Shown here in pieces: positions 5,046-45,469 of a stretch of 50,539 nt of DNA. The notes beneath the pieces are model-generated. The model worked only from the letters and a program-made list of their open reading frames with translations. It ran no database searches and had not been told where the DNA came from. Within the stretch, counting starts at the first letter, position 1. Each line of letters starts with the position of its first letter. Both the position numbers and the translations under genes were made by a program. Where the stretch lies: NCBI GenBank assembly GCA_024280855.1, contig JAJRPG010000064.1, positions 1 through 50,539 of the forward strand, read 5' to 3'. The stretch is from Planctomycetota bacterium (GTDB lineage Bacteria > Planctomycetota > Phycisphaerae > UBA1845).

Positions 5046-8000
5046 CTATGGATTGAAGCTCAATTGCAACATCGCGAAGTCACGCAGGTCTACATGCTCA
5101 TTAGCGTCAAAATCAACACATACACAGCCAAAGTTCGCCACATCTGCGGGACCAAATAGGCACTCTACAAGATTGGCCGCATCACCCAGATCAATAATGC
5201 CGTCATCATGACACTCACCATTTTCGTAGGCCCCCATATCCAGATAGGTCAAAACGCCAACCCCCGTGTCCACGACGTCAATGTTGTCAATGTTGTCAAT
5301 GACACGGTCCTTACCGTCGAGATCGACAGGGCCGCCATCACTTTCTAAGTAAGCATCATAATCTGCCGCATCAATACAAGGCGAATCAGCCATGAGGCGC
5401 AGATCGTCGTCTTCGGTGCCAGCAACCCCGTCAGGCCCAAGCGGATCAACGAATAACGGATCAGCGTCGATGTTCCCGCCACCATCATCGCCAAGGATGA
5501 CATCCCAATTCGCACTTCCACCACTACCTTCGATGTCGCTATAAGCAATCAACATCGTACTATTGTCGCTGATTATCTCATCAGGACTATCGCCCCACAT
5601 GATACAGTTGGTTATTGTGGCGATGGAGGACAATTTGCTGTACATCCCACCGCCACGATTGGCCACGTTTCTGTTAAACGAACAATTAGCAAGTATGGGG
5701 TTGCCATCACTATTGGAAATCCCACCCCCCGAATCAATGGCGTGGTTTCCACTGAATTGGCAATTGGTTAGCGTCGATTTGCCACCCCAATTTATCATCC
5801 CGCCACCGTTTCGGGCTATATTCCCGCTAAGCGAACAGTTAATCAATGAAGCGGAGTTACGATTGCCAATGCCACCGCCACTGTCACCGGCCCTGTTTTC
5901 AAGGAAGGTGCAATTAGACAATGTCATTGTGCCCCTATTATTTATTCCGCCACCATTCTCATCAGCCATATTTCGACTGAACATGCAATTGTTCAACGTC
6001 AGTCCATCACCATAATTCAACACCCCGCCTCCTTCTCTTTCCACCTCGTTTCCAATAAAAGAACAGTTGGTTAACGTCGAGGTGGAGGAGCCACCGTTGT
6101 ACACTCCGCCTCCACCAACAGCATTGTTGCCATTGAACATACAGTTGATCAATAATGGGTCTGAGACACCGTTATACATCCCACCGCCAGCTCCGTCGGC
6201 GTAGTTGTCGCGGAATACACAGTTGGTTATCGCCGGGCTGCTGTCGCTATTAAACATACCGCCACCGAACCTCGCCGCGTTACCACTGAAGATGCAGTTA
6301 TTGACTGTCGGACTGCTCCCGTCATTATGCATACCTCCACCTCTCGATGGCCAATCAAAAAAGGGCCTGGTCCCAATCCCACCTGTAATCGTGAACCCCT
6401 CTAGCACCGTCGCCGCCGTCTCACCATTGACGCAGCTAACCACCGAATAACCCTTCCCTACATCCACCTCGTCAGCTGCGTCAATGACAGTTAACGCCGG
6501 GCCATCTTGACCGCGCACAGCTATCGCCTTGCCAAGAAAATCGATGGTCTCGAAATATCTACCCGGCGTTGCGAGACACTCTTGGAAATCCTCAGCCGCG
6601 TCTATACATGCCTGAATCGTGCAGTAAGACGTGCCCCTCGTTGTATTGTGAACCGGCAATGACGGAGATTGGTTTTCGTGCGCCCCCATGTCTACCCTGC
6701 AAACGATGCGAGACAAGCCACCTAAGTCCGTCGTAACGCCTGCCGGAATAGCCGCGTTATTGCCCGCGTTATTCGCTGGCGAATCTGACATTAGACGAAG
6801 GTCATCATCCGCCGAACCAGCTATACCATCAGCGCCAAGTGGACTAACAAATAACGGATCAACGTCAATGTTGCCGCCGCCGTCCAAGCCCATCCATGGG
6901 TTCCAAGCTAAACTACCGCCACTATGGCCAATGTCGCAATAGGAAACCGCTGGCATGCTGCCACTGATGTTGACCATATCGTTCGGACTATTGCCCCACA
7001 AAATACAGTTAGTCATCGTGGGACTACTGCCAAAGTTGTTAGACATTCCGCCGCCATCTTCGCTCGTGGTCGAATTACCACTGAACGTACAGTTGGTCAT
7101 CATGGGGCTGGAAGAGTTAAAGTTATACATCCCCCCGCCACCGAACTCAGCCGTGTTCCCACTGAACGCGCAATTCGTCACTGTCGGACTAGCGAAGCTG
7201 TTAAACATCCCCCCGCCAAAAGCAGATGTATTGCCTCTGAATATACAGTTAGCCACGGTCGGGCTGCTGCCATCGTTAATCATCCCTCCACCAACAGAAT
7301 CCACGAAGGCGACCGCGTCTCCAACGCCTCCTGTAATGGTGAATCCATCTAACACCGTCGCCTCCGTCTCACCACTAACACAACGAACAACCGAGACACC
7401 ATCCCCAAAATTCAGGACACGCGACGCATCAATTGTGGTCGTCGCCGGGCCATCCAAGCTACGCACGGTAATTGCCTTACCTAAGAAATCGATTGACTCA
7501 TAATAAGTCCCAGGCTCAGCTACGCACTCGTCCGAATCCGCTGCGGCGTCTATGCATTCCTGAATGGTGCAATAGAAAACATCCAACGTCGTATTGTGGA
7601 CCCGCAACGGTGGAGAATGATTTTCATAGGCACCCAAATCTACCCGCTGACAAACGAAACGCGGCAATCCATCCAGGTCCGTGGTTACACCAGCCGGAAC
7701 AGCTAGGTCATTACCTATGTTAATGACAGGCGAGCCGGTTAGAAGTCGCAGGTCGTCGTCATCGCTACCAGCGACGCCATCAGGCCCAAGCGGATTAACG
7801 AATTGCGGATCAACATCTATATTGTGACCTCCGTCCAAGCCCAACATTGAATTCCACGCAGCACTGCCACCGCTTCCGCCAATGTCGCAATAGGCGAATG
7901 TCGGCAAACTAGGAAACACGAAGTCGACTTGGTTGGACATCTCATCTGGGCTGTTGCTCCACAGTATGCAATTTGTCAGTTTAGGACTTGAAAATTGGTT

Positions 8001-8999
8001 ATACATCCCTCCACCAATATCATCAGCTGTGTTTCCGCTGAAAGTGCAGTTGATTAATGTGGGGTCGCCAGACCTATTGAACATACCACCACCTTGGATA
8101 TAAGCCAAATTTCCGCTGAGCAGACAGTTAGTAAACGTTACGCCAGACCCACTTCGGTTGTATATACCGCCACCATAGCTTGAAATATTGCCAGTGAACA
8201 CGCAGGCAGTTATCGTGGAACTATCTCTAGAATTGAGCATACCACCACCAAAACCATCGGCCTTATTCCTACTGAACAGGCAGTTGATTAATGTTATGTT
8301 CGAACTTAGACTGAGCATACCTCCACCTCCCGACTCAGCCGTATTTTCATTAAAACTGCAATTCGTAAAAGTCGGGTTACTCCGGTGGTTGCTTATTCCG
8401 CCGCCACTATTGGAAATGTTATTGTCAAAAATGCAATTCATCACCGTCGGGCTAGCTTGTCTATTATACATCCCACCGCCGCTGCTTGCCCTATTACCAC
8501 TAAACATACAATTGATAACGGTCGGGCTACTGCCATCATTATACATACCTCCTCCAGTTGGATTTACTGTGACGGAAGTGTCCCCAGTCCCACCCGTAAT
8601 CGTGAATCCATCCAACACCGTCGCAACTGTCTCACCACTAACGCAACGAACCACTGACACACCGTCGCCCAAATCCGGCACATTCGACGCATCAATAATC
8701 GTCGTCGCCGCACCATCAGAGCTACGCAACTCAATCGCCTTGCCGTTGAAATTGATCGACTCGAAATATGTTCCAGGCGAAACCTCAACGGTGTCACCAT
8801 CAATGGAGGCGGCTATAGCTACCTGAATTCCGCAATAGGGATCAACCAAGCTCCCCGCTCCGGAATTTGGACAAGTATCGTCGTCAACGTATCGAGTCGT
8901 CTGCCCAAACGCAGTGCAAGACAATCCCAGCATGATGGCCATCGCTGAAAGCCCTGGCCTAAGTAACCGTTCACCGCTCGTGTTTCGTGTAGTCCTCAT
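5046..8999 (-). CDS. large secreted right-handed beta-helix protein with three Pmp-like modules and a dockerin-like C-terminus
   Basis: The 1317-residue product has a signal peptide ending at TAFG/Q. Three homologous modules follow. Each opens with a capping segment (SPGTYFESINF, EPGTYYESIDF, TPGRYFETIDF), then a run of roughly 24-residue coils of the GGGMYN...SPTVTNCxFSGN type, then a closing segment with DxxPLGxDGxxGxxDDDLRL and DLGAYEN. This is the choice-of-anchor Q/polymorphic-outer-membrane-protein pattern of extracellular parallel beta-helices. The C-terminus holds two calcium-loop-like motifs (CHDDGIIDLGDAANL and VDFDANEHVDLRDFAML). The ATG at 8999 is preferred because AGAGGG lies six bases upstream. 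It is a paralogue of the genes at 20372 and 24857. Ligand or enzymatic activity cannot be told; a surface adhesin or polysaccharide-binding role is inference. Confidence 0.85.
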   Translation of the reverse strand: MRTTRNTSGERLLRPGLSAMAIMLGLSCTAFGQTTRYVDDDTCPNSGAGSLVDPYCGIQVAIAASIDGDTVEVSPGTYFESINFNGKAIELRSSDGAATTIIDASNVPDLGDGVSVVRCVSGETVATVLDGFTITGGTGDTSVTVNPTGGGMYNDGSSPTVINCMFSGNRASSGGGMYNRQASPTVMNCIFDNNISNSGGGISNHRSNPTFTNCSFNENTAESGGGGMLSLSSNITLINCLFSRNKADGFGGGMLNSRDSSTITACVFTGNISSYGGGIYNRSGSGVTFTNCLLSGNLAYIQGGGMFNRSGDPTLINCTFSGNTADDIGGGMYNQFSSPKLTNCILWSNSPDEMSNQVDFVFPSLPTFAYCDIGGSGGSAAWNSMLGLDGGHNIDVDPQFVNPLGPDGVAGSDDDDLRLLTGSPVINIGNDLAVPAGVTTDLDGLPRFVCQRVDLGAYENHSPPLRVHNTTLDVFYCTIQECIDAAADSDECVAEPGTYYESIDFLGKAITVRSLDGPATTTIDASRVLNFGDGVSVVRCVSGETEATVLDGFTITGGVGDAVAFVDSVGGGMINDGSSPTVANCIFRGNTSAFGGGMFNSFASPTVTNCAFSGNTAEFGGGGMYNFNSSSPMMTNCTFSGNSTTSEDGGGMSNNFGSSPTMTNCILWGNSPNDMVNISGSMPAVSYCDIGHSGGSLAWNPWMGLDGGGNIDVDPLFVSPLGADGIAGSADDDLRLMSDSPANNAGNNAAIPAGVTTDLGGLSRIVCRVDMGAHENQSPSLPVHNTTRGTSYCTIQACIDAAEDFQECLATPGRYFETIDFLGKAIAVRGQDGPALTVIDAADEVDVGKGYSVVSCVNGETAATVLEGFTITGGIGTRPFFDWPSRGGGMHNDGSSPTVNNCIFSGNAARFGGGMFNSDSSPAITNCVFRDNYADGAGGGMYNGVSDPLLINCMFNGNNAVGGGGVYNGGSSTSTLTNCSFIGNEVEREGGGVLNYGDGLTLNNCMFSRNMADENGGGINNRGTMTLSNCTFLENRAGDSGGGIGNRNSASLINCSLSGNIARNGGGMINWGGKSTLTNCQFSGNHAIDSGGGISNSDGNPILANCSFNRNVANRGGGMYSKLSSIATITNCIMWGDSPDEIISDNSTMLIAYSDIEGSGGSANWDVILGDDGGGNIDADPLFVDPLGPDGVAGTEDDDLRLMADSPCIDAADYDAYLESDGGPVDLDGKDRVIDNIDNIDVVDTGVGVLTYLDMGAYENGECHDDGIIDLGDAANLVECLFGPADVANFGCVCVDFDANEHVDLRDFAMLQLSFNP

Positions 9000-9447
9000 A
9001 ACATGCCCTCTAAAAATATGCACACCGATCAATAGATCACACCTGTCACAAAACAAAACCACGCAATCACATAGAGAAAGCGTTTAATCTATTTGTGACT
9101 TACAAGGGCAGCGCGCACCTCACCCAAATGCTCGATAGCGCATGCGCCACAAACCATGAGAGATATCACTATGCGTGCGCAACCATAGCGCACACACCAG
9201 GAGGGGATTCGATTTTCTTGGCTGGCTTAGTTAATCAAGGAAGGAACGAAAAAAAATAAACTGAAAATGACGAATAATCGCATTGCGATTTATTGCTTAC
9301 AAAATCTTGCAAGCAAAGATATATATTGTCTTCCCTCAACAAACTTACACTACCCAAGTCCTCCGATAACACTCTCCTTGTACCCATAACATCTATAGGC
9401 CTGCAAAATCTGAAAGTCAATGACGGCTTTGGAAACTTCACAATCGC

Positions 9448-9907: not shown

Positions 9908-9955
9908 ACAAAAAAACGAAGCCGCCCACGATAGATAACTTCGTGAGCGGCTTCG
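9908..9955 (-). terminator. rho-independent terminator after the ParA-CBM48 gene
   Basis: Read on the minus strand, the stem CGAAGCCGCTCACGA (9955-9941) pairs with TCGTGGGCGGCTTCG (9931-9917) with one mismatch, and a run of seven T follows directly. It lies 41 bases after the stop codon. This is the clearest intrinsic terminator in the window. Confidence 0.85.
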
Positions 9956-9995
9956 CTGATAGTTCTGTCTTTTATTGAACCGAATCTCGGCAGAG

Positions 9996-11681
9996 TTATT
10001 TCTTAACCTCAGCCACCGAATTCAATTCGCCATACTCATTCGTTTCGATATTAGAATTATTAATATCGTGCGTCCATCGGCCATCCACCACCAGACGATA
10101 ACGATAACGACCCTGAGGAAGCTTTAACCGAGCCACGAAATCGCCGGCGTCCCGCCGCTCCATCGGTGTCGTGTGCGGCATCCAATCGTTAAAGTCACCA
10201 GCTAACTGCACCTCTGTCGCGTCTGGCTGATTGCTTTGGAAAATCGTAACTTCACCTTCCTGCCTGACGCCATAAATAGCTTCAATCTTCGCATCAACTT
10301 GCTCCGGCGTACTCTCATAAGCAGGCGTCGTTTCACGCGCAATTGGTTTAACATCAACCGACTCCAGGCGAGACGCTTGCGAGAATGTAGACGGTATTAC
10401 AGATGGCGTTACAACTGTCGGTTTCACATCAACGACCGTTGGCTTTATCTCAGCAGGTACCAATTTTTCCGGGCTGGCGAACTGGGGCAACTGAGGCTTC
10501 GGTAACGCCTTAGGCATTTCCGTTGTCGTGAAAGTCACCGGCGTCTTTATCTCGGCATTCTGAGAAACAGGCGCGACCAATGCTTGTGGAGCAACCGGCG
10601 CGGGCTTGGGAGCCATACTAACCGGAGCAGAAGGAGTAGCCGAAGTAGACTGCGTAGCCGTTGGCGCAACAGGTGTAATTGTTGCAACCGCAGGCGCAAC
10701 TACAGGCGAGCTAGCCACGACAACTGAATGTGCTGGTGAAGTCTCAAGTCGCGCTGGCACACTTGGCGTGACAGACTCTCGAACCTCATCTCGCGTAGGC
10801 AACGCCACAGGGTCACGAGGCCCAACCAGCGTCGTCGTAGTCGCAAGAAGCCGTTCAGCGTCAGCCGCCAGTCTTTCAACATGCTCCAATATGTCGGCCG
10901 TAGCTACATCCACAACCTCACCCGCAAGAATCTCTCTCGCTAGCTTCTGGAAATCCTTTGCACCCATACTCGTCGGGGCAAATTCCGTGATTGGCTGGCC
11001 ATAACTAACGCTTTCTTTTAGCTTCGTATTAAAATTGATGATCGTCTCAAACACAATGCCCTTATACCGACTACGCAACTCAGCCAAAACTTCACGAGCC
11101 AGCTTAGTGCGCACATCATATTGATTCGGCAACACCCGAGCGTTTGGATTTTTACCGCGCTTCTGACACAAATTTTCAACCGTAGCGAGCTGTTGCGTCA
11201 GACCATGTAGTGAGAAATAACCCGTATCCACAGGAATAATAATGTCATCAGCCGAACATAAACCATTACGCATCAATGCGCCGTAATGAGGCGGGCAATC
11301 AATAATACAATAGTCATATCGATTGTTCGTAGCTGAGAGCAACTCGCGCAGGAGCGTATCAGCATCCTCACGATCACCGACTTTTGGCTCAAAGCCCGCA
11401 AGATTCCCGCGCGACGGCGCTAAATCAAGATTAGGCGTGATCTGCCAGGTCACCCGCGCAAGCTCCATAGGCTCACCTTCGACCTGAGCAACCAAACAGT
11501 CCCGAATCGATAAATCAATCTGCTCGTCGGGGACAGCCATGCCCAATGCGCAGTGCCCCTGTGGATCAAGGTCCACCAGCAACACGCGACGACTCTCCCT
11601 CGCTAGGGACGCAGCTAAGTTAATGGCTACTGTGGTCTTGCCACAGCCACCTTTTTGATTGGCAATTGTAATTGTACGCAC
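9996..11681 (-). CDS. ParA/MinD-type ATPase fused to a C-terminal CBM48/AMPK-type glycogen-binding-like domain
   Basis: Residues 1 to about 260 are a ParA-family ATPase: deviant Walker A NQKGGCGKTT at 8-17, Walker A-prime VLLVDLDPQGHC near 34, and the CIIDCPPHYGAL and IIPVDTGYFSLHGL switch regions. ParA proteins dimerise on ATP and position DNA or other cargo. A Pro/Ala/Val/Thr-rich linker of about 200 residues follows. The last 90 residues (TIFQSNQPDATEVQLAGDF, NDW, GRYRYRLVVDGRW) have the E-set fold signature of CBM48 and AMPK-beta glycogen-binding domains. No parB gene or obvious parS site is adjacent. The start is GTG with TGAGGG seven bases upstream, inside a hairpin. The domain calls are strong; the idea that the ATPase positions a glucan or glycogen-associated cargo is inference. 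Confidence 0.85.
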   Translation of the reverse strand: MRTITIANQKGGCGKTTVAINLAASLARESRRVLLVDLDPQGHCALGMAVPDEQIDLSIRDCLVAQVEGEPMELARVTWQITPNLDLAPSRGNLAGFEPKVGDREDADTLLRELLSATNNRYDYCIIDCPPHYGALMRNGLCSADDIIIPVDTGYFSLHGLTQQLATVENLCQKRGKNPNARVLPNQYDVRTKLAREVLAELRSRYKGIVFETIINFNTKLKESVSYGQPITEFAPTSMGAKDFQKLAREILAGEVVDVATADILEHVERLAADAERLLATTTTLVGPRDPVALPTRDEVRESVTPSVPARLETSPAHSVVVASSPVVAPAVATITPVAPTATQSTSATPSAPVSMAPKPAPVAPQALVAPVSQNAEIKTPVTFTTTEMPKALPKPQLPQFASPEKLVPAEIKPTVVDVKPTVVTPSVIPSTFSQASRLESVDVKPIARETTPAYESTPEQVDAKIEAIYGVRQEGEVTIFQSNQPDATEVQLAGDFNDWMPHTTPMERRDAGDFVARLKLPQGRYRYRLVVDGRWTHDINNSNIETNEYGELNSVAEVKK

Positions 11682-20371: not shown

Positions 20372-22297
20372 TCATGGTGACATAATTATTGATTGCAGTG
20401 CTGCATAGTCAGCCAGGTCCACTGCTTTGTCGGCGTTGAAGTCGAATGCGTTGCAGGGGGCGGTTGTTGAAGTCTCACCGGGGTTGGTCATGCAGGCTGG
20501 TAAGTCGGCTAGATCGCTAAGATCGACGAGGCCATTGCAGTCGAAGTCGCCGATGCCTAATTCGTATGGGCCAAAGTCAACCCTCCCGCAGAGGATGCGT
20601 GTGTGGCCATCCAGGTCGCGATCAACGAATAGTGTCGCATCAGGATCACCGGCGTCTATGAGCGGAGAGTCGGGGCGCAGGCGCAGGTTATCGTCTTCGT
20701 TGCCGGGTATGTCGTCCGGGCCATCTTCATCTACGAACATGGGGGCAGCGCCGGTGTTGCCTGGGCCTGGGAACTTTCCATCCGGGCCGTCGTAGCCTTG
20801 AAGGACGGTGTAGGATGCGCGGGCGATGCCTTGGTTTCTTGTTGCGCGAAATTGGGCAGGCAAGGATGTTTCGCCAAAATAGTTACGGTTATTCCAAAGA
20901 ATGCAGTGTTTTAATTCAACTATGCCATGATGAGCGTCTACACCACCTATTTCGTTATCAACGAACGTGCAGTGTTCCAGGTATGCCGAGCCAAAGCCGT
21001 TAAAAAACACTGCTCCGCCTCCGCGATTGCCCGTGAAGAGGCAATTATAAGCTTCTGCAATCCCACTGTTTCTTATAGCCGCACCGGAGCTTATGGACTC
21101 ATTACCGATGAATTCGCAGTTTGTTATTGTGGTCTGACTGTTGACGTTAGTATTAATGCCCGCACCTGAAATCGAGCCTTGAACGGAGTTACGAATGAAG
21201 CGGCTATCGTCGATCGTTGCTCTGGTTCGGAATCCTACCGTAACAGCCGTACCATTATTTTCGATGAATGTGGTTCGTCGGACAGTTCCGCGATCCGCTA
21301 CGAGCCACAAACCGCCACCAGCATTAAAAGAAAAGACTGTGTCCTCAACAATAGCGGAGCCGCTGGTTTGCGAGCCAAATGCTGGAGAATTGCCAAAGGC
21401 TAGATTGTCAGTTATCAGGCAGTTTTTGACAATGACATCGCTACTTCTTGCGTAAATGGTCGTAATGGCGGCAGCTACATTATTACGCAAAGTACAGTTT
21501 CGGAGGGTTGCCCCGCCATCTTCAATGCGAATTCCTGCACCGATAGCACTAGGAAAAGAATCTGCTCGTCCTGATGTGACGATAAAGCCATCGACGATAG
21601 CCGAGGTATCGGTATCAAAAGCCGTCATAACATTCAATGCATTATCGCAGTCGTTACGTGTACTGCATAAGTTGCAACAAATCACAGATGCGCTGAATGC
21701 ACAAACACTACTCCATAGTCTTGTACAACATTCACTTTCACGCGGGGAATCTTTGGGACATATTATCGCTTCGCATACGGGGTCGTCACAGCCGGGCGTA
21801 TCGCGGGCAGTACAACAGTCGCTCGTTCCCCCATCAAAGCTGCCATCCGGATTATCGTCCTCGTTAAGATCGCCACTGAGAATGGTTTCGTTGATTACGA
21901 AGTCGCGTTGATCGCGGTAGGTTTCCCAGCCTGCGAAGCCGCCGTAAAGTTCGACGTTCTTATGGAGTGAATAAGACATGGTCCTGTCACCCGTGCCTCG
22001 GTCTGGATGATAGGTTCCGGCTGCTACCCAGACTTCTACTAGATTACCTTGGTCGGCCAGGGTAGCGGCTTCGTCGAGTGCGTCTTGTAAATCTATGTAA
22101 GCGTTTTCCCAACAGGTATTGCCGGAGATTGATTCGGGCGCGGCTTCTGCGCAGCGAATGATTCGCCCATCAGGAAGCGTGATGTCGCGACAGACCCTCG
22201 GAGGCGGGGCACTGCCGTTAACGCAAATGACTTCCTGGGCGCTGGCGGATGACGTGGCCACACCTATAAAAAGTAAGAGTGTAACTAAACTTCGCAT
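20372..22297 (-). CDS. secreted right-handed beta-helix protein with dockerin-like C-terminus
   Basis: The 641-residue protein has a signal peptide (MRSLVTLLLFIGVATSSASA, then QE). The opening segment WENAYIDLQDALDEA...VWVAAGTYHPDRG, VELYGGFAGWE and ETILSGDL is the standard choice-of-anchor Q start. A Cys-rich insert (CCTARDTPGCDDPVC ... CCNLC) interrupts it near residues 165-220, then come beta-helix coils (NCTLRNN, NCLITDN, NCEFIGN) and the closing DEDGPDDIPGNEDDNLRLRPDSPLIDAGD. The C-terminus has two calcium-loop-like motifs, DFDCNGLVDLSDLADL and DFNADKAVDLADYAAL. The ATG at 22297 is used; GAGGGG lies 13 bases upstream, and a TTG at 22318 is less likely. It is paralogous to the genes at 5046 and 24857. 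Function beyond an extracellular surface role is unknown. Confidence 0.83.
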   Translation of the reverse strand: MRSLVTLLLFIGVATSSASAQEVICVNGSAPPPRVCRDITLPDGRIIRCAEAAPESISGNTCWENAYIDLQDALDEAATLADQGNLVEVWVAAGTYHPDRGTGDRTMSYSLHKNVELYGGFAGWETYRDQRDFVINETILSGDLNEDDNPDGSFDGGTSDCCTARDTPGCDDPVCEAIICPKDSPRESECCTRLWSSVCAFSASVICCNLCSTRNDCDNALNVMTAFDTDTSAIVDGFIVTSGRADSFPSAIGAGIRIEDGGATLRNCTLRNNVAAAITTIYARSSDVIVKNCLITDNLAFGNSPAFGSQTSGSAIVEDTVFSFNAGGGLWLVADRGTVRRTTFIENNGTAVTVGFRTRATIDDSRFIRNSVQGSISGAGINTNVNSQTTITNCEFIGNESISSGAAIRNSGIAEAYNCLFTGNRGGGAVFFNGFGSAYLEHCTFVDNEIGGVDAHHGIVELKHCILWNNRNYFGETSLPAQFRATRNQGIARASYTVLQGYDGPDGKFPGPGNTGAAPMFVDEDGPDDIPGNEDDNLRLRPDSPLIDAGDPDATLFVDRDLDGHTRILCGRVDFGPYELGIGDFDCNGLVDLSDLADLPACMTNPGETSTTAPCNAFDFNADKAVDLADYAALQSIIMSP

Positions 22298-22369
22298 AGC
22301 GTTAGCATGGCCCCTCAAGGATTCTTGTTCATCAATGGCGGTACGGCTGTTTGAACGAAAGTCGCACCA

Positions 22370-22671: not shown

Positions 22672-24504
22672 CTACCAGCCGCAGACGGCGTCTTTGTTTT
22701 GTTCTTCCAGCCAATCCAATAACGGCTGGAAGTAATCAATGATAGCTGTGGCGTCCATTTTTCTTTGACCAGTTAGAGCCTCGATGGCGTCGGGCCAGGG
22801 TTTCTCCATGCCCATTTCCATCATGTCGTTTAGAAGCTTGCCAGCCTTCTTATTGTCGTAAATCGAACAGGTATGCAGCGGACCTTCATGGCCTGCTACT
22901 TCACAGAGCGCACGATGGAACTGGAACTGCAAAATCGTGGCTAAAAAGTACCGCGTATAAGGCACATTAGCTGCGACGTGATACTTCGCGCCTGGATCAA
23001 AATCTTTTTCCGAACGCGATACAGGCGGCGCAATGCCTTGATACTTGGTTCGCAGCTTCCACCAATGGGCGTTGTATTGGTCTGGGCTTACCCGACCTGA
23101 AAAAACGTCAAAGCGCCATTGATCGACCAACAAACCAAACGGTAAGAAAGCGATTTTATCCAACGCCCGCCGCATGAGCGGGTTCAAACTGTCAGGCGGC
23201 AACTTATCGAGATAACCAATTTTTACGAAATAAGCCGGCGTGACCGAAAGCGCGATCGTATCGCCGAGGGCTTCATGGAATCCGTCGTTGGCGCTATCGG
23301 CAAACAGGGCAGACAGACGTTTATACGCACGCTGGTAATAGTTATGGCCTAGCTCGTGATGAACGGTTGTAAAATCTTCCGCGTTAATCTCAATGCACAT
23401 TTTGATGCGTAAATCGTCCAGCCAATCAATGTCCCAGGCGCTGGCGTGACAAACGACTTCCCGGTCGCGTGGCTTGGTGAACATGGACCGCTCCCAGAAA
23501 GTTTCGGGCAATGGGTCTAAACCTAGTGAAACAAAAAACGCCTCCGCTTGTCGCACGACACCTCTTTCGTCTATCTTTTTTTCCTGAAGAATACCTGTCA
23601 CGTCAAAGGCGCTATCTTTTTCCGGGGCGAGTAGATCGAAAATGTTGGCGAAATCCTGGCTCCACATATTGCCTAGCAGGTGTGCGGGGATCGGTTTTCC
23701 GCTCGGCACTTTATCGGCTCCGTACTTCTTGGCTAATTGGGTGCGGGCGTAACAATGTAGCTGCTGATATAACGGCTGAACCTGCTCCCAGAGTCTATTA
23801 ATCTCCTTCTCGAACTCGTCGGGCGGCATGTCGTAGCGTGATTTCCATAGGTCGCCGAGGTCGCCGAAGCCAAATTCGCGTGCGCCCTCATTGGCTAACT
23901 CTACAAAACGCACGAATTTCTCGCGCATGGGCTTTGTCGTGCTGCGCCATCCGACCCAGGCCTCTTTTAATTCATCGAAGTCGCGCGACGACGCGAGTGT
24001 CTTGGACAAGTCACCGAGCGTTAGGCAATCGCCGGATTGGCCATCTGGGCAGTATTTCCCTTTGCCGTACATGCTGCTCATTTCGGTGGCAAGGATGGCT
24101 AACTCCGATCGTTTGGCACTATCAGATGGGGCAGGTAGCGATAATCTTAGTTTGAGAAGATTGAATTTTCGCCGCAGGGAAGCGTCCAATTTTAGTCCGT
24201 CAAATCGGCGGGCCTGGTCTGCTTTGATGGAGACGTAGGCCATGACTGCTTCGCTGGCGCGGGCGGCGAGCATGTCCGTATCGTAAGTGATATTCGTGGA
24301 CTTGACCCATTCGCTGCGCTCGGACGCGATGAGCAAATCGAGCAATTCCGTTTCGAGGGAATCCATGAATGCTTTGGCTTCGCCTGCCGTGGGCTTGGCA
24401 CTATCTGTATCGGCGCAGGCGCGGTGTAACCCAAGTGGCGGCGACATCAAGACGCCAGCTACGATGGCAACTAACGTCAGTCTGGTTCGAGTTATAAGAT
24501 TCAT
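22672..24504 (-). CDS. peptidyl-dipeptidase A / angiotensin-converting-enzyme family (M2) zinc metallopeptidase, exported
   Basis: M2 enzymes remove dipeptides from peptide C-termini. The 610-residue product has a signal peptide (LTLVAIVAGVLMSPPLGLHRACA). The zinc site HHELGH has His at 383 and 387 with catalytic Glu 384, and a third ligand, Glu in FHEALGDT, at 411, the spacing expected for ACE. FGDLGDLWKSRYDM and LPFGLLVDQWRFDVFSG are further family signatures. The ATG at 24504 is preferred because AAGGGG lies seven bases upstream; the longer frame would run through a family B hairpin repeat. Length matches a single-domain ACE. It may supply dipeptides in the periplasm, which would fit with the peptide importer at 12-18 kb, but the link is inference. 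Confidence 0.92.
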   Translation of the reverse strand: MNLITRTRLTLVAIVAGVLMSPPLGLHRACADTDSAKPTAGEAKAFMDSLETELLDLLIASERSEWVKSTNITYDTDMLAARASEAVMAYVSIKADQARRFDGLKLDASLRRKFNLLKLRLSLPAPSDSAKRSELAILATEMSSMYGKGKYCPDGQSGDCLTLGDLSKTLASSRDFDELKEAWVGWRSTTKPMREKFVRFVELANEGAREFGFGDLGDLWKSRYDMPPDEFEKEINRLWEQVQPLYQQLHCYARTQLAKKYGADKVPSGKPIPAHLLGNMWSQDFANIFDLLAPEKDSAFDVTGILQEKKIDERGVVRQAEAFFVSLGLDPLPETFWERSMFTKPRDREVVCHASAWDIDWLDDLRIKMCIEINAEDFTTVHHELGHNYYQRAYKRLSALFADSANDGFHEALGDTIALSVTPAYFVKIGYLDKLPPDSLNPLMRRALDKIAFLPFGLLVDQWRFDVFSGRVSPDQYNAHWWKLRTKYQGIAPPVSRSEKDFDPGAKYHVAANVPYTRYFLATILQFQFHRALCEVAGHEGPLHTCSIYDNKKAGKLLNDMMEMGMEKPWPDAIEALTGQRKMDATAIIDYFQPLLDWLEEQNKDAVCGW

Positions 24505-24576
24505 AAGCTTCCCCTTCAGTAATTTTTCGTAAAGCCATTCGAGGCGGACTTTATCCGCGTTACGTATTGACCGTAC

Positions 24577-24624
24577 ATCATCGACTCCCCCATGTCCAAA
24601 AAGAAGGACATGGGACACCCGGCC
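24577..24624 (+). repeat. hairpin repeat family B, copy 2
   Basis: ATCATCGACTCCC, then the stem CCCATGTCC/GGACATGGG with loop AAAAAGAA, then ACACCCGGCC. It is the most canonical copy and differs from the one at 2266 by a few bases. It lies in the divergent gap between the M2 peptidase and the beta-helix gene. Confidence 0.85.
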
Positions 24625-24800: not shown

Positions 24801-24856
24801 GTGTAGTAACAGATTCTTAGAGTACTCTGTACTTCATATTTAGGGGGATGTTTTTG

Positions 24857-27241
24857 ATGAAAACAAATAATAATATTCATGGGCAGCATCCAAGGCCAAT
24901 TTTGTCGACTATTATGATGACGCTGATCTTTGCATGCACTGCGTTCGGTCAGGCGACACTATACGTCGATGACGATAACTGCCCGGCTGTAGGAGTCGGG
25001 AGTCTTGTCGATCCTTATTGCGCTATTCAAGTTGCCATCGATGCGTCAGCCAATGGCGACTCGATCGAGGTTTCGCCGGGTACATACTTCGAGACCATCG
25101 ATCTTCTTGGTAAGGCGATCACCTTGCGCAGTGCAAATGGATCAGCCACGACAACCATTGACGCAACGGGGATACCTAACGCATCAGTAGTTCGCTGCGT
25201 CAGTGGTGAAACGGCTGCGACCGTGCTTGATGGATTCACCATAACAGGTGGAACTGGAGACATATCATTATTCGGATTTCCAGCTGGTGGGGGAATGCTC
25301 GTTGACGGAAGCAGCCCAACTGTAACAAACTGCAACTTCGTTGAGAATATAGTCCCAGGCGGTGCCGGAGGTGGAATGTACAACTCGGGCGGATCTAGCC
25401 CAACCATTACGAACTGCATTTTCATAGGTAATTCAACGTCAATTGGAGGCGGGATGTACAATCACACCAGCAGCCCGACAATTTCCAATTGCTCGTTCAA
25501 TGACAATTTAGCTATCAACCGATTAGGTGGAGGGATGCGAAATTACAAATCTAATCCAACTATAACCAATTGCACCTTTAGCAGAAATTCTGCTGTCGAT
25601 GGTGGCGGAATAGCCAATCTTGAGTCCACCACGATAATAAGCGGTAGTAAATTTCTCGAAAACTCGGCCAGCTTTCTTGGTGGCGGGATGAACGACTACG
25701 ATTCCAACGTGACTATCACCGATTGCGAGTTCAGCAGAAACTCGGCGCCCCTCGGCGGTGGGATGAATAATGACTCCAGCGTTCTGGAGATATCAAACTG
25801 CACATTCAGAGGAAACACCGCTGATTTCGGCGGCGGTATGTTCGCATCCTTATCAAGCGTAACTGTAGCCAATTGCAATTTCACCACAAATTTTTCCAGT
25901 ATCATAGGCGGAGGAATGTGCAACGAATACTGCAGCCCAACAGTGATAGATAGCAGATTTTATTGGAACACCTCCAGCTCCGGCGGTGGAATGTTCAATC
26001 ACGAAGCCAGCCCTACTGTGATTAATTGCACATTCAACTCAAACATGGCTAATAGTCGTGGTGGTGGCATTTACAACCAAGTGAGCGGAAAGCCGACTAT
26101 AACCAACTGCACGTTTTACCTAAACTCTGGTAGATTTGGAGGAGGGGGCATATACAATGATAGAGTCGGTCCGATTGTGACCAACTGTATACTATGGAAT
26201 AATAGCCCCAACGAGTTAGCTAACAATAACAGCGTTCCTACAATCGCGTACAGCCTTATAGAAGGTAGTGGTGGCAGTACCGCTTGGAACTCCAGGTTAG
26301 GTACGAATGGCGGTGGCAATATCGACGCCGACCCGTTATTTGTCGACCCGCTTGGCGATGACGACGATTTACGACTTATGCCCGGCTCGCCCGCTATAGA
26401 TGCAGGTGACAACACCGCCCTGCCTAACAGCGTTAATGCTGATCTGGATGGCAATCAACGATTTGCAAATGATCCGGCTACCGCCGATACCGGAAACGGA
26501 ACGCCCCCCATTGTCGATATGGGAGCGTATGAATTTCAGCCTACTTGTGGAAACGGCATGACTGATCCGGATGAAGAGTGCGACGACGGAAATACTGATT
26601 CGGGCGACGGGTGTGACGAAAATTGCCATATTGAGTTGGGTGCTTGCTGCTTGGAGACCGCATGCAGCTACGTCACACAGATTGACTGTGAAGGTGATGG
26701 GGGAAGTTTCCTTGGCTTAGATATCAATTGCCCTGGCAACCAGAGCATTAGCATAAATCCATGCGCGATGCCTATTATAATTGACATCAAGCCAGGTAGC
26801 TGCCCCAACCCAATTAATCGTAAAAGCAAGGGCATGTTCCCCATTGCGATTATTGGTAGCTTGGGCTTTGACGTGTCGGAGATTGATGTAGACTCCCTTT
26901 CTTTAGCGCGGTCAGATGGCATCGGCCATGCGGCAAAGCCACTCAACGGCAAAAAAGGGCCCGGCATTGTAATTGAAGATGTCGCTACAGCCATAGAGGC
27001 AGAGCCATGCTCATGTCACGAACTAGGCGGAGATGGAACAGATGATTTATTGCTGAAGTTCTCTACGCCAGAATTAGCTAATGCGCTAGTGTTGGACAGC
27101 TTGGCGCGAGGCGCGACGATCGAACTTATGCTACAAGGCTCACTCCTGGATGGTACGAGTTTCGTGGGGAGTGACTGTATCTTGGTCCAAGGGAAAACTC
27201 GCAATTTGACTATTATACGGCCTACAAAAAGAACCAGATAG
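24857..27241 (+). CDS. secreted right-handed beta-helix protein with Cys-rich repeat and C-terminal beta domain
   Basis: The 794-residue product begins with a signal peptide ending CTAFG/QA and a first module almost the same as that of the gene at 5046 (YVDDDNCP, SLVDPYCAIQVAI, EVSPGTYFETID). About 14 coils of the GGGMYN...SPTITNCxFxxN type follow, then the DADPLFVDPLG closing segment. Next comes a DUF4215-type Cys motif (CGNGMTDPDEECDDGN, CDENC), then a second Cys segment (GACCLETACS). The last 160 residues (IDIKPGSCPNPINRKSKG, MFPIAIIGS, DVDSLSLAR) form a domain that recurs in many environmental secreted proteins. There is no dockerin-like pair here. The second ATG (24857) is preferred because AGGGGG lies nine bases before it and abuts the first ATG. 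Function is unknown beyond an extracellular location. Confidence 0.82.
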   Translation: MKTNNNIHGQHPRPILSTIMMTLIFACTAFGQATLYVDDDNCPAVGVGSLVDPYCAIQVAIDASANGDSIEVSPGTYFETIDLLGKAITLRSANGSATTTIDATGIPNASVVRCVSGETAATVLDGFTITGGTGDISLFGFPAGGGMLVDGSSPTVTNCNFVENIVPGGAGGGMYNSGGSSPTITNCIFIGNSTSIGGGMYNHTSSPTISNCSFNDNLAINRLGGGMRNYKSNPTITNCTFSRNSAVDGGGIANLESTTIISGSKFLENSASFLGGGMNDYDSNVTITDCEFSRNSAPLGGGMNNDSSVLEISNCTFRGNTADFGGGMFASLSSVTVANCNFTTNFSSIIGGGMCNEYCSPTVIDSRFYWNTSSSGGGMFNHEASPTVINCTFNSNMANSRGGGIYNQVSGKPTITNCTFYLNSGRFGGGGIYNDRVGPIVTNCILWNNSPNELANNNSVPTIAYSLIEGSGGSTAWNSRLGTNGGGNIDADPLFVDPLGDDDDLRLMPGSPAIDAGDNTALPNSVNADLDGNQRFANDPATADTGNGTPPIVDMGAYEFQPTCGNGMTDPDEECDDGNTDSGDGCDENCHIELGACCLETACSYVTQIDCEGDGGSFLGLDINCPGNQSISINPCAMPIIIDIKPGSCPNPINRKSKGMFPIAIIGSLGFDVSEIDVDSLSLARSDGIGHAAKPLNGKKGPGIVIEDVATAIEAEPCSCHELGGDGTDDLLLKFSTPELANALVLDSLARGATIELMLQGSLLDGTSFVGSDCILVQGKTRNLTIIRPTKRTR

Positions 27242-37418: not shown

Positions 37419-37964
37419 ATGACATCATCAAAATACATTTTGCCCGCGCTTGCAATCGTTTGCTTAGCTACAATCTCCTATGGCGTTACTCATGACGTGC
37501 CCCATCAACAGCTGGGATTTACCACAGTATACATCGTTCGCCATGCTGAAAAAACAAGTGAACGATCTAATGCAAATTTAACAAAGGAAGGAAAATCGCG
37601 GGCCGAGGTGTTGAAGTGGATGCTGAGAGACGTTTCTTTGGATGCCATTTATACCACCGACACAACCAGAACACGGCAAACAGTCCAACCGACTGCGACG
37701 GCGAAGGAACTCAAGCTTACTCTGTATACGCCCAAGCCAGGCAAACTAGCCGAGACTATTATTCAGCAGCATGTAAGCCAAACACTGCTGGTCTGTGGCC
37801 ATTCCAATACCGTTCCCGAATTACTGCGGTCACTCGGCGTGAGTATCAAGGAAAATATTCTAAAGGGATATGACGATTTGTTTATTGTAACGATTGACAA
37901 CCACTCAGACGGGCCTACTCCTCGTACTCACCTGCAGCGATTGCATTATCCAGATTCTCGCTAG
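37419..37964 (+). CDS. histidine phosphatase family protein (SixA/phosphoglycerate-mutase-like), membrane-anchored or exported
   Basis: The 181-residue protein has an N-terminal hydrophobic segment (YILPALAIVCLATISYG). The catalytic RH motif is TVYIVRHAEKTS near residue 37, a conserved Arg follows in YTTDTTRTRQTVQPTA, and the second catalytic His is in LLVCGHSNTVPELL near residue 125. Members remove phosphate from small molecules or phosphohistidine through a phosphohistidine intermediate. Its export signal argues for an extracytoplasmic small-molecule phosphatase rather than a signalling role. The ribosome binding site is weak. Its TAG stop overlaps the stop of the opposing giant gene in a shared CTAG. 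Family is firm, substrate unknown. Confidence 0.85.
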   Translation: MTSSKYILPALAIVCLATISYGVTHDVPHQQLGFTTVYIVRHAEKTSERSNANLTKEGKSRAEVLKWMLRDVSLDAIYTTDTTRTRQTVQPTATAKELKLTLYTPKPGKLAETIIQQHVSQTLLVCGHSNTVPELLRSLGVSIKENILKGYDDLFIVTIDNHSDGPTPRTHLQRLHYPDSR

Positions 37965-40900
37965 GGTAAAAACATACGCTGAAAAACGGCGAAGTCTTGT
38001 AAATCTATATCGGTGTCAAAATCAAAATCAAAGACCTCTGCTTGCTGAATCGCCATCGTAGATGGGCCTACGAGGTTGGTACTCAGTTGAGAATAATCGA
38101 CCAGGTCTATGTCGGCATCTAAATCCTGATCGCCGGTTGGTTTCTTTAGCGAACGCAACACGCGAAAGCCAATACTATGATTCAGCGTGCTTGGCGATAG
38201 CGGAAGTCGCGTCGTCAGGTTCATGCCTGAGCTTGGGTAGACGTTTTGCCAACTCCCACCTCGCGCCGCGTGAGTCCCTGTTGAGTTGAATCGCCCCTGC
38301 ACCCATTCATACACATTGCCCGTCATGTCGAACAAACCAAAAGTGTTACTGGTCGTAACCGTAATTGTTCCACTACCAAGCAAATTGATACCATCATAAA
38401 AACCAACCGGCGATGTGGCGGGGATATTATCTTCAAACGGGTCATCGCTCAGCGAATAATTGGCGTCGGCTGATATAATCGCATCTCTACCGAATCCAAA
38501 ATCTCTATTCACACCAGCCGTTAAATCCCACGCTGCAGCGGCATACCATTCGTTGTAATCATCCGCAGAGTCGATAGATGCAGTGCTGTTGTTAACACCA
38601 TCATCCATCGGCAAGCGATACCCTAGATAATTCGTCACAAAATCGGCCCGTTCGACATCATTCAAATCTCTAAATGCCCAGAACGTATCACTGATAACCG
38701 TCGGTCGCCAGCCAAAAAGATTTGTCGAAACATCCTCTGCGTAACATCTGTAAGACGGAGGCAAGCCTTGGTCGAGCGTTAGCCAATTGCAGTATTTTAC
38801 CGCACCGTACCAACTGACACCGGTGACAGGATGCGACGTATAATCGACAAAAGCGCTGGCGATTGAGTATGTATTTGTGGCTGAGTTATATGAAATATGA
38901 TTGGCTACACCGGGCGAAAACATTTTCGTCGTCAGCAACCCTGGCCCCATCCCGACGGCCCCGTTGACGCTACTGTTGATATAAACATCACCATTAGTCT
39001 GATCTATAAAGACATACTGGCCTCGCTCGTTGGTGAGGTTAGCTAAGGCATTATTGAGGAAGCTAATATACTCCTCGTTTGTGGTTTCATAAGCATTCAT
39101 CAGGAAAGGATAAGTCGGGCCATTGGGCTGAGCGCTGCCGCTGGTATTTGACGCCAACATCGGCGACGCGACAAAACTCGGCGATGTAACTTGCAGCGTA
39201 ACCATTCGTGTAATTGGCGTTGAGCCAATGTTGTCCGTGATGGTCAACACCGTAGTATACAAACCAATGGCTAACGATGCCGCACTCGCAGGGTCTACGG
39301 ATAAAATTATCTCCACATTTTCACCAGCAGGCAGCGACTGCAACAAGGTCGATGTGGCACCGTTGATGCGCAGCCAGGATACGGGCGGATTACTCTGCGC
39401 ATTCCAGGAAACACTGCCGGACGTGGAGCCATTAACCAAGGTGAAAGTTTTAATCCGCGGTGTAAAGGGTCCGCCAACCGGCGCGAAGATGTCGTAATCT
39501 TCTAATGGCGTGAGGGCTAGGTCGCCGGGGACCACCAGCGTAATCGTGCGCGTCTGAACATTGGTGGCTGTGATGTCATTAAACGAAATCGTAGCTGTAT
39601 GCACACCGCCGCCGAGGTTGTCCGCGAGATTATTTATCGTCAAATCGATCGACTGGAAAAATCCTGACAAAATCGTATCAGCAACGCTGGTCGCCCCGTT
39701 CAAATCCAGCCAATCGACATCTGAAGTGACGTTATAATCCACCGAAATCTCAGCAGGAAACGCGACGGCTACCACATAAGTACCGTTGCCTGCGCTGAGC
39801 ACATAATTTCCCGCAGCTTGCTTGGTCCAGGTATAGTTCGGATCATCGTCCACCGCGAGCGGGGCAATATCAAGCGGGTCTCGAACATTTATTTCGAGTG
39901 GCAAGTCAATGGCACTGGACGCAGTAACATTATTAAAGGTGATCGACAAATCTTCCACGAACCCGATAGGCTCATCTTCTAAAGCGTCGTTGGTTGATAT
40001 GATAATCTCAATCATATCTTCGCCATTGGCATCGCCTGCAGCCGCCAACGTCCCCGTCATCTGCGTCGAGTCATCAAGCTCAAGCCAAGCGGGTAATGTC
40101 GCTATAGTATAATCAAGCGTAGCTGCTGACAGATTCGACAAGGCGAAAGTGCGTGACTGAACGATAGCTGTCGAAGACCAAACGGTGGATACCGAAAATA
40201 TTTCATTGGTGCAGTCGTCCATCGGCGTCGGAACGCAAACAACTTCAAGAGTTTCGTCTATCACCAACTCGAAATCGCGGGTCTCGCTATACCCCGTCGT
40301 CATATTCATGAACGTAACCGTAGCGGTATAAGTCCCCGGCGAAAGCGTGTCCGCCGAGCGGTTGAGCGTTACATCCACAAACTCAGGCACCTGATTGCTT
40401 AACGTTCCAGAATCACTCACCGCCCCATTAACATCTAACCATCGCGTGCCAGTTGTGCTAACGACCGCCTCCCAATCCATATCCGTCGCGGACTCACTGG
40501 TGAGCGTATATTGCTTATCGTTAATCGAGAAAGGCCCGCCAAAAACACCTTGCGATGAAAAGCCATCTTCCGGTGAAACTGCGAACGGCTCGCGCAAAAT
40601 CAATAGAATACCCTGCCGAAAGCTCACCTCAGCTGTCACGTCTGTAATCGTCAACGTCGCAACTTGATCGAGCTTTGATTGTACAATTCGAAAGCCAACA
40701 TTTGATAATGTACTTCCTGGTAAGGCTGAGCTTTGAGCTGTGGTAAGATGCGCACCACTAGCTGTGTCATCATCAAAACTTCCGCCGCGAAAACTATGCA
40801 ACTGCGGATCGTTAATCCCGCCACGGTCCTGCATCCATTCAGCAACGTTTCCACTTAAATCAAAAAGCTCATATGCATTCGTCTCAGCAACAGTTGCAAA

Positions 40901-43900
40901 CTCCGCGCCATCCCCAACCATGCCTCCGCCGCCAGGATTGTATATCGTGCCATCATAAAACCCGACCGGCGTAGAATCTGGTTCGAAAGAGTCGCCGCTG
41001 GTAAGAAAATTAGCATCAGCCGAATTTAGTCCAGCCGCAATATCTCGGCCAAAGCCATAATCGTGATTGACGCCCAAGCTCTCATCCCACGCCGCAGCTT
41101 TGTACCATTCATTATAAGCACTAGCTGAAGGCGTGAACTCGTCCATTGGCAAACGATAACCTGCGAAGTTGTTTATCAAATCTTCCCGCTCATTGGCGTT
41201 GAGGTCTCGCGCACCAGCCTGCGGACCGGGTTGCCCAAGCGTATCGACAACGCCCCACCATGCACAAGTTGAAATCGTAACCGGATGCCAATCACCAGGG
41301 CTAACGCCTTCGCTATAAGCCCGCTGAGCCGAACCCAACTCATCCTCAACGGTTAGCCAATTGCAATACTTCACCGCGCCAAACCAACTCACGCCGGTGA
41401 CAGGATGCGTCTCGAAACCCATCTCCACTATATACTTAGTCGTAAGAAGATCATACGAAACGCGCGCATTCGCAGCCGGACTAAAAAGAAGCGTCGTTCG
41501 CGCATTTACCCCATTACCAACCTCGCCCATCACATCCGTGTTTATATAAACATCGCCCGTAGCTGAGTTGAAATACATGTACTGACCGCGTTCGTTACTC
41601 AAACTTAGCAACGCGTTATTTAGAAACTTAACAAACGATTCATTCGTCGTTTCCAAAGTCGCTATCCGGTACGAATATCGCGGCCCATTTGGCTGAGCGT
41701 CTGTTGCGGGAATAACTGTCATGGGAAAAGCTGGCGTCGCTGGCGCGGGCAACACATCCGCCATTTCATTGAAAGCTAACGTAAAGTCAGCCGTGACGCC
41801 GGGCATACCTGCTGACACAGGCTCGACCAGGCCTTCAATACAAGACTCCGTTTCATTTATGGATAGCCAATCGGCATCAATACACACGCGATACTCAGTT
41901 GCAACTGACGCAGAATTATTGCTAAGCGAATAATCAAACGACGCCGGCGCGAACGCACCACCGATGGGCGCAGATGACAAACATTCATTAGCGTCCACGC
42001 TACCGCACGCAGATAAGATATCCAAGCCAGTATTAAATTCGCTTTGAACAACCCGCAATCCAGTAAACGCCCGAGTAGCACTAGCCAAATCTATTTCGCG
42101 TTCCGTATTTGTTAGCAGCAAGGAGACGATATTATTTTGCCAGTTACCGCCGCGCGTCGTCCGCTCTTCAGGCTGCGACCCCACATCCTGCATCCACTCG
42201 CTTACATTCCCGCAAATATCATACAACCCATTAGCATTAGCCGTGTCACTGGTCGAGATCGATCCGCTATCAATTTTATTGACGCCATCAAACCATCCTA
42301 CCGGCGTAACGTCCACGAACGGGTCATCGCTAAAAAGAAAATTCGCATCAGCCTCGCTAACTACATCTTGGCCAAACCCATACAACACATGCACGCCGCC
42401 ATTCGTAGGGCAAATCGCCGGGGCACTACCACAGTTATCATGCGCGTTACCATTATTCGCTACGCAAGGCGGGCCGGTTAAAATCAAGGAGAATTTTGTC
42501 GACTGGCCCTCATCAACAGCCACCCGAATCCAATACTCCGTGTCAGCTATGACGCTTGCAAACAGTCCAGTCGAATTGCTGCATGAAATTTCGTCGCACA
42601 AACTTCCCGGACAGTCATCATGAATAGATAACGCCGGCGTAATGCCAGATTCCGTTTCAACAGTCAGCGTCACCTGCCCGTCACTTGTCGGCGTGTATCT
42701 CCACCACACGTCCGCCATCGCCGCCCCGCCATCGCACAACGACACACCATCCTGGCTAGCCAAATCCGTAGTACCAAAGCCTATATCATTGATCCACGAA
42801 GCTGCTTTATACCACTCGTTATATAACGACGTAGTCGACTGACCGTCATCCATAGGCAAACGATAACCCGTGTAGTCAACCAAGTCGCTCCGCTCCGCAT
42901 TATTCAAATCTCGCGAGCCAACCACCGGCGACGGATTGTTCGCCGTATCAATAGTCCCCCACCAATCCAACGTAGAAATCGTAGCCGGATGCCACTCGCC
43001 CGCGTTAGGCCCTTCACTATACGCACGCTCACTCGCTGGCATCCCTTGACGAAGCGTAAGCCAATTACAAAATTTCAGGGCCCCATACCAGCTCACCCCG
43101 GAAACTGGCTCATCCTCGGTATCTGGAACTACACGATACTGCACAGTGTCATAAGTAATGCGGCCACCGTCCGACGCATCAAACATGATAATCCCACTAC
43201 CGATTGATCCAATCTGCCCTGTAGGCCCCGTGTTAATATATACGTCACCCAGCGTGGTATCATGAGCCATGTACTCGCCGCGAGCGTTCATCGTGTTAAA
43301 CAAAGCATCATTCAAAAATGCCACGAACTCGGCATTGCTGACTTCAAATTTTCCAACGCGATAATCATGCAACGGACCACCAAGCTCAACATCAATCGCC
43401 GGCACACTAGCCATATCTATCGTCAGGGGGGCTAAGCCAACACTCACCGCGACAGCACGCGTCGCTGCGGCACCACTCACCTGATCCGTAAAAGACACCA
43501 CAGCCGACTGTATCTCGCCCGGTGGAAACAGGATCGCGTCTTCAATTTTAATTGAAACCGTAAAATTAGATGACAAACTCGGAGCCACGCTACTGCACAC
43601 CGTAGCCACATCATCAATCAACACCCAAGGCTGCGTCGAAGTAACACAAAGCGAGAGCAACTCTGTTGAACCATTCGTAACTGTATAAATCTGTTCACCC
43701 GGAAAAAAAGGACCACCCGTAGGCCCCGAAGCCATAATCCCGGTCACAGGATCAACGTCCAACTCTTCCGAAACGCTTAGCATCACATCGCGGGTCGTAA
43801 AACTTTGCAAATCAACATCAAACGTCACCACAGCCGCGAAGTCTCCCACCAGCTTGGTCAAAGCGTCGTCGTTGGTCGTAAGCAAAATCTCGATACTGGC

Positions 43901-45217: not shown

Positions 45218-45469
45218 TGATGCTTGAGCCTCCATGCTCACTCACGCTGCGTCAAAACACCAATAATCGCCTGACGCGCGAAATATCCTGTTTTCAGCCC
45301 GCTCACCCCATCCCCGGCACTGAATAATAAACTATCGGCGTTTTCCCCCCGCACCGAACACATAACCAGCGGTAAGCCTGCCTTAAGCCTGTACTACGCC
45401 CTGCCGACAGACTTTTATAGAAATCGACGCCAGAAATTCAGCGCAAAGCTTTGTTAAGGTATCTTAGAC

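Follow-up and report, generated by a model that had tools for sequence, protein, structure and literature searches.

The window, the whole 50,539-nucleotide stretch of contig JAJRPG010000064.1 analysed here, belongs to a planctomycete of the class Phycisphaerae. At 9996..11681, on the minus strand, it carries a gene with a GTG start encoding a 561-aa fusion of a ParA-type ATPase and a C-terminal CBM48/AMPK-type domain, hereafter ParA-CBM. All the features of this locus lie on the minus strand. The ParA/Soj-type ATPase domain (10908..11681, residues 1-258) was delimited with Pfam, an AF2 model and VIA-align. It is followed by a predicted helix of the model that is kept in the family consensus (10836..10898, residues 262-282), a disordered linker rich in Pro, Ala, Thr and Val (10317..10835, residues about 283-455), a short modelled helix adjoining the CBM and conserved in Phycisphaerae (10275..10307, residues 459-469) and finally the AMPK-beta/CBM48-type domain (10002..10274, residues 470-560), placed by profiles, alignment to 1z0n and the model. 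With an input alignment of 36 family members, AF2 modelled the ParA fold with confidence, the linker as disordered (pLDDT mostly below 50) and, again with confidence, a beta-sandwich over residues 470-560. This architecture agrees with the full ParA-type ATPase, the long disordered Pro/Ala linker and the terminal E-set domain that an earlier note had read from the same DNA. Linker length differs widely among ParA-CBM proteins, from almost none in Omnitrophota up to about 170 aa. Shortly 3' of the stop codon, a strong hairpin followed by a U-run (9908..9957, -33.9 kcal/mol, z -7.4), which a simple scan had missed, is a probable intrinsic terminator, so that the gene probably terminates its own transcript.

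The ATPase domain is that of a ParA protein by sequence and by fold. Residues 1-174 match the Pfam family AAA_31/ParA with an E-value of 5.4e-46, and the model superimposes on Soj/ParA with a Z of 36.9 (1.5 A, 248 aa). Among the matches listed, fold searches with the full model returned ParA chains only, and the Soj/ParA structures (T. thermophilus 2bej, H. pylori 6iub/8jmj, 8ray, 9a6n) share the fold over residues 1-257 with Z from 33 to 37. The protein possesses the KGGxGKT motif with its signature lysine, the switch aspartate, the Walker B aspartate and the ParA fold that define ParA/MinD ATPases. Its signature residues are Lys10, Lys15, Thr16, Asp37, Asp39 and Asp128, and across 121 ParA-CBM sequences the lysines and aspartates are conserved in every one, a single T16S being the sole exception among the ATPase residues. 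ParA-CBM would accordingly be expected to pass through a cycle of ATP dimerisation and hydrolysis.

Binding to nucleoid DNA is likewise predicted. Two putative contacts align with Soj positions: Arg191, kept in 116/121 sequences, and Lys220, which is Lys or Arg in 113/121. They are 29 residues apart, the same spacing as R195 and R224 of CcParA, two residues reported to bind DNA and to be shared by several ParA-like ATPases (PMC7229837). Another classical Arg/Lys contact position is occupied by the non-basic Phe217. BcsQ and FleN belong to the same fold family, and the window protein reaches 98.3 bits against the BcsQ profile NCBIfam TIGR03371, below the cut-off of 157.85; sequence and fold scores both place its ATPase domain nearest Soj/ParA, not FleN or BcsQ.

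At the other end of the protein, the assignment of the CBM is based on sequence profiles and on the beta-sandwich of the AF2 model. PF16561 (AMPK1_CBM) is matched with an E-value of 6.9e-14 by the whole protein and 1.9e-15 by the C-terminal 96 aa, at 57.2 bits for a curated cut-off of 26.8, and PF02922 (CBM_48) with 3.1e-8. Among PDB sequences, the C-terminus is closest to the glycogen-binding domain of AMPK beta-1 (1z0n, E 8.9e-14), and ParA-CBM is the only PF16561 protein of the window genome. The contact-site equivalents are Trp500, Arg529, Trp536, Tyr550, Gly551 and Asn554. The two tryptophans are the aromatic glucan-contact residues on whose presence the earlier note had made its reading depend. 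Asn554 corresponds to N150 of AMPK and position 550 to L146, two residues that we take to have a role in the glucan site. Trp500, Arg529, Trp536 and Gly551 align with W100, K126, W133 and G147, and mutation of any of these four in AMPK impairs glycogen binding (PMC6274970).

The contact site is retained across phyla. Trp536 is invariant (121/121) and position 550 is aromatic, Tyr or Phe, in 119 of the 121 sequences; Trp500 also appears invariant, but unlike Trp536 it was partly used to choose the extra loci. Position 529 is Arg in 58/58 Phycisphaerae and Gln in 16/62 Omnitrophota, while position 554 is Asn in 55/58 Phycisphaerae and Asp in 35/62 Omnitrophota. Compared with the AMPK beta CBM, ParA-CBM thus keeps the sequence family (PF16561/CBM48), the two tryptophans, the basic residue, the glycine and mostly the asparagine, and differs by the Tyr/Phe in place of Leu146 and by its fusion to a ParA ATPase outside any AMPK. 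A carbohydrate ligand is suggested by these residues.

The fusion recurs in more than 200 genomes and is thus no artefact of assembly or chance. The presence of the same fusion in other Planctomycetota, which the earlier note had proposed to look for, is borne out in 49/60 related genomes, where a genome was counted if its ParA and CBM parts matched within one gene or one contig; G016 is included on the strength of its ORF length, from which its CBM part is assumed, and in G009 and G018 the CBM part is a fragment at a contig end. Among the matches listed from 392 Planctomycetota genomes, the full-length ones all belong to Phycisphaerae, a class in which the fusion is the rule, and the other classes gave ParA-only matches. 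A first scan had found further matches in loci titled Omnitrophota and Poribacteria. In Omnitrophota the fusion is present in at least 148/237 genomes, a lower bound counted by hand among the matches listed and demanding at least 340 of 366 profile positions; all three Poribacteria-phylum genomes carry it (3/3).

In a maximum-likelihood tree of ParA domains, all 45 fusion proteins form one clade with a support of 98/99, and plain ParAs of the same phyla fall outside. The topology tracks taxonomy, with Omnitrophota on one side and Poribacteria and Phycisphaerae on the other. Since all the fusion ParA domains in the tree group together, a single old fusion is indicated, and one ancient event followed by mostly vertical descent over the three phyla is the simplest reading. 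The literature searched contained no paper describing a ParA-CBM fusion.

The surroundings of the gene vary between lineages. As the earlier note had remarked, no parB lies nearby: none of the annotated genes beside the window gene encodes ParB, and neither do the recurrent neighbours identified at related loci. A plain ParA paralogue of the window genome, 36% identical (G000:C87:10737-12065, L002), likewise shows no obvious parB in its 1.5-kb flanks, so the missing parB discriminates little. This paralogue bears a long Pro/Ala-rich C-terminal tail. Within the window gene's own family of loci there is no conserved neighbour, and neither flagellar nor cellulose genes were seen beside the window gene. 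Two candidates were rejected: the divergent neighbour cluster c1, present at eight loci of the window family, encodes secreted repeat lipoproteins with no link seen, and the genes for an oligopeptide ABC transporter that lie upstream, across a 380-bp gap from the window gene, are kept as a full set only within the genus, a Dpp-type set near L084 being taken as coincidence.

In several other Phycisphaerae families, a gene directly downstream of ParA-CBM encodes a DN protein of 420-577 aa devoid of a P-loop (L190:9517-11217, L064:3413-5143, L057:6666-7928 and relatives). Its middle part resembles FlhG/FleN, with an E-value of 2.9e-9 to FlhG 4rz3, and DN can be described as a degenerate FlhG/FleN-like protein. 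A DN partner elsewhere in the window genome was considered and set aside: the single hit, G000:C11 (E 7.9e-10), is confined to the part that DN has in common with true FlhG, and the gene itself resembles an ordinary member of the FlhG/MinD type.

Omnitrophota show a well-preserved operon, with genes for a porin-like Alginate_exp protein, a GH57 protein, a single-TM protein and ParA-CBM. The TM protein gene lies directly upstream of ParA-CBM at 52/62 loci (L137:7764-8333 and 51 others), and a GH57 amylase gene lies at most four genes away at 28/62. The AF2 model of the TM protein (mean pLDDT 89) shows a helix at the N-terminus, a single TM helix and a beta-sandwich whose best match is CBM11 (VIA Z 13.8, 2.3 A over 119 aa). 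Its outer domain may therefore be called CBM11-like, a placement by fold alone, and the basic N-terminus suggests an N-in topology. Neither the DN nor the TM family matched an accepted family in a Pfam scan. At the three Poribacteria-phylum loci, another gene occurs downstream (L068:8959-9711, L164:2776-3471, L165:2544-3278), whose product includes a Cys-containing segment, CASCAHLIARAGQPFQCRIYS, along with the N-terminal motif described below.

The neighbour proteins of several lineages have in common an N-terminal pattern close to [LI][AS]xx[YF][LF][GTSD], LAxxYLG-like. It is found in the N-termini of the Omnitrophota TM proteins (EIYDHLAQVYLGKR) and of DN proteins (IDELADLYLTD, ISNIAHFFLSD), in the protein encoded downstream at each of the three Poribacteria-phylum loci (FEDISHYFLSAAEAD) and in neighbours at Omnitrophota loci without the TM gene (DVSHVFLSS, IDLELSRTYFGN). 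Among non-adjacent ORFs, 9/834 (1.1%) contain it in their first 60 residues, a background rate that flatters the motif because it was first spotted by eye. Profile-profile comparison aligned DN and TM over the motif only, with weak support (P 0.067), the proteins being otherwise unrelated in that comparison, and a motif scan returned it as the best site in only 6/11 DN proteins. No motif-bearing partner was found beside the window gene or inside the 50-kb window. The pre-CBM helix EEIDRKIEAIYGVRQ was also considered as a docking motif in cis and rejected, being the best scan site in some sequences only and not above shuffles. Since N-terminal peptides are reported to mediate the docking of partner proteins to ParA/MinD ATPases (PMC10241942), the shared motif is probably the docking peptide for ParA-CBM.

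Beyond the observed domain make-up, single origin, residue conservation, partner linkage and shared motif, we tentatively propose, with a confidence that stops somewhat short of probable, that ParA-CBM is an ancient and undescribed ParA subfamily in which a ParA/partner cycle is tuned or aimed by carbohydrate binding. ATP would bring about a sandwich dimer on nucleoid DNA, and docking of a partner by its short N-terminal peptide would trigger hydrolysis and release. The ATPase would carry, on a flexible tether, a recognition module of the CBM48/AMPK-beta type; binding of a cytosolic glucan or oligosaccharide to it would make carbohydrate a determinant of where the ATPase and its partner are located or how active they are. 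The Omnitrophota partner would reside in the inner membrane and carry a CBM11-like domain on the extracytoplasmic side, and in the window's Phycisphaerae family the partner would be encoded away from ParA-CBM. A more specific version, possible although on the unlikely side, holds that the CBM48 domain reads a cytosolic glycan and makes the positioning of an assembly in the envelope or the cytosol respond to sugar status, through the CBM11-like membrane protein in Omnitrophota or through other partners with the common docking motif.

The nature of the ligand was approached through the co-occurrence of the fusion with four enzyme families, GT5 glycogen synthase, GH13, GH57 and GT35 glycogen phosphorylase. 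At an E-value of 1e-10, none of PF08323, PF00128, PF03065 and PF00343 is matched in the 96%-complete window genome, which makes an ordinary CBM48 ligand hard to name. At the thresholds used, all four families are missing from 17/49 fusion-bearing relatives, the window genome included, and eleven of these 17 genomes are at least 90% complete. GH57 and/or GH13 genes are present in 9/11 fusion-lacking relatives, and GH57 is commoner without the fusion (9/11 vs 20/49; Fisher P 0.02, a rough value as the genomes are related). Besides the GT5 synthase family covered here, a GT3 synthase is known in PVC bacteria (PMC11046441). Glycogen is an unlikely ligand in the window organism.

Retention of the fusion in such genomes would also be expected if the E-set domain were a derived protein-interaction module that binds no sugar and recruits a partner or cargo, positioning a protein complex like McdA or ParC. 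The variability of contact residues 529 and 554 in Omnitrophota points the same way, and the AMPK CBM region also binds the GDE protein independently of glycogen (PMC6274970). Against this stand the two tryptophans and the aromatic 550, the sugar-stacking site of AMPK beta, fixed over three phyla, and the carbohydrate proteins (GH57, CBM11-like) encoded beside ParA-CBM in Omnitrophota; we regard such a module as fairly unlikely.

More doubtful is a carbohydrate-responsive regulator that positions nothing, in which sugar on the CBM would set the ATP state and, through it, act on a target. BcsQ serves cellulose secretion, a polysaccharide machine, and FleN/FlhG control FleQ; both ATPases have the fold of ParA-CBM, and the Phycisphaerae DN neighbour is itself a degenerate FlhG/FleN-like protein. 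Glycogen also inhibits AMPK activity via its CBM (PMC6274970). However, the ATPase domain is nearest Soj/ParA, with DNA-contact residues kept, and not FleN or BcsQ.

The lead idea of the earlier note, that the protein positions a glycogen granule, which we took to include partitioning of granules at cell division, is now very unlikely and was dropped after the co-occurrence test: despite an AMPK-type CBM with an intact contact site, the GH57 gene of the Omnitrophota operon and the glycogen synthesis reported for Omnitrophota MAGs (PMC8542988), GT5, GH13, GH57 and GT35 are all missing from the window genome and from 16 further relatives with the fusion, so that families for branching and phosphorolysis are absent along with the GT5 synthase, and no positive co-occurrence was seen. 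Carbohydrate sensing or another glucan-associated body, which the note had also named, fits better with the Omnitrophota neighbourhood of GH57 and the CBM11-like membrane partner.

The subfamily proposed here, with its partner cycle tuned or aimed by carbohydrate, resembles several known systems in part. It shares with Soj/ParA the Walker motifs, the conserved Arg191 and the basic residue 220, and differs by its separate clade, its linker and CBM, the lack of an adjacent parB and the other partners encoded beside it. FlhG/FleN and BcsQ are members of the same superfamily, from which the window protein is set apart by its scores with Soj/ParA and by its neighbourhood, free of flagellar and cellulose genes. 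To our knowledge, the ATPases McdA, PpfA, ParC and PomZ lack a domain of their own for binding cargo or ligand, and no other ParA/MinD ATPase carries its own carbohydrate-recognition domain. In the McdA/McdB, PpfA, ParC and PomZ systems, a ParA-type ATPase is likewise combined with a partner bearing an N-terminal docking peptide (PMC10241942). Unlike these ATPases, ParA-CBM has the CBM built in.

A family of single origin that is widespread across one phylum and standard in a class of a second phylum must serve a basic function, and ParA-CBM presumably plays such a role in the mostly uncultured cells of Omnitrophota and Phycisphaerae. ParA/MinD ATPases organise DNA and protein cargos; if the carbohydrate-gated reading is true, ParA-CBM would be the first class of them to contain a carbohydrate receptor of its own, and would represent a core trait of both groups. 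Knowing the ligand would also tell whether bacteria possess an older counterpart of AMPK-type glucan sensing. Direct handles on ParA-CBM function are offered by the docking motif, by the CBM11-like membrane protein and by the ligand of the CBM.

On other aspects, the window holds several further genes of note. A Peptidase_M2 protein, of the angiotensin-converting-enzyme family, is encoded in this planctomycete at 22672-24618 (E 6e-222), and a 2426-aa protein at 37961-45241 has a C-terminal FGE-sulfatase-type domain and a galactose-binding-like domain. Additionally, three large right-handed beta-helix proteins are encoded at 5046-9062, 20372-22318 and 24848-27241, the first of them with Chlamydia PMP-like repeats.
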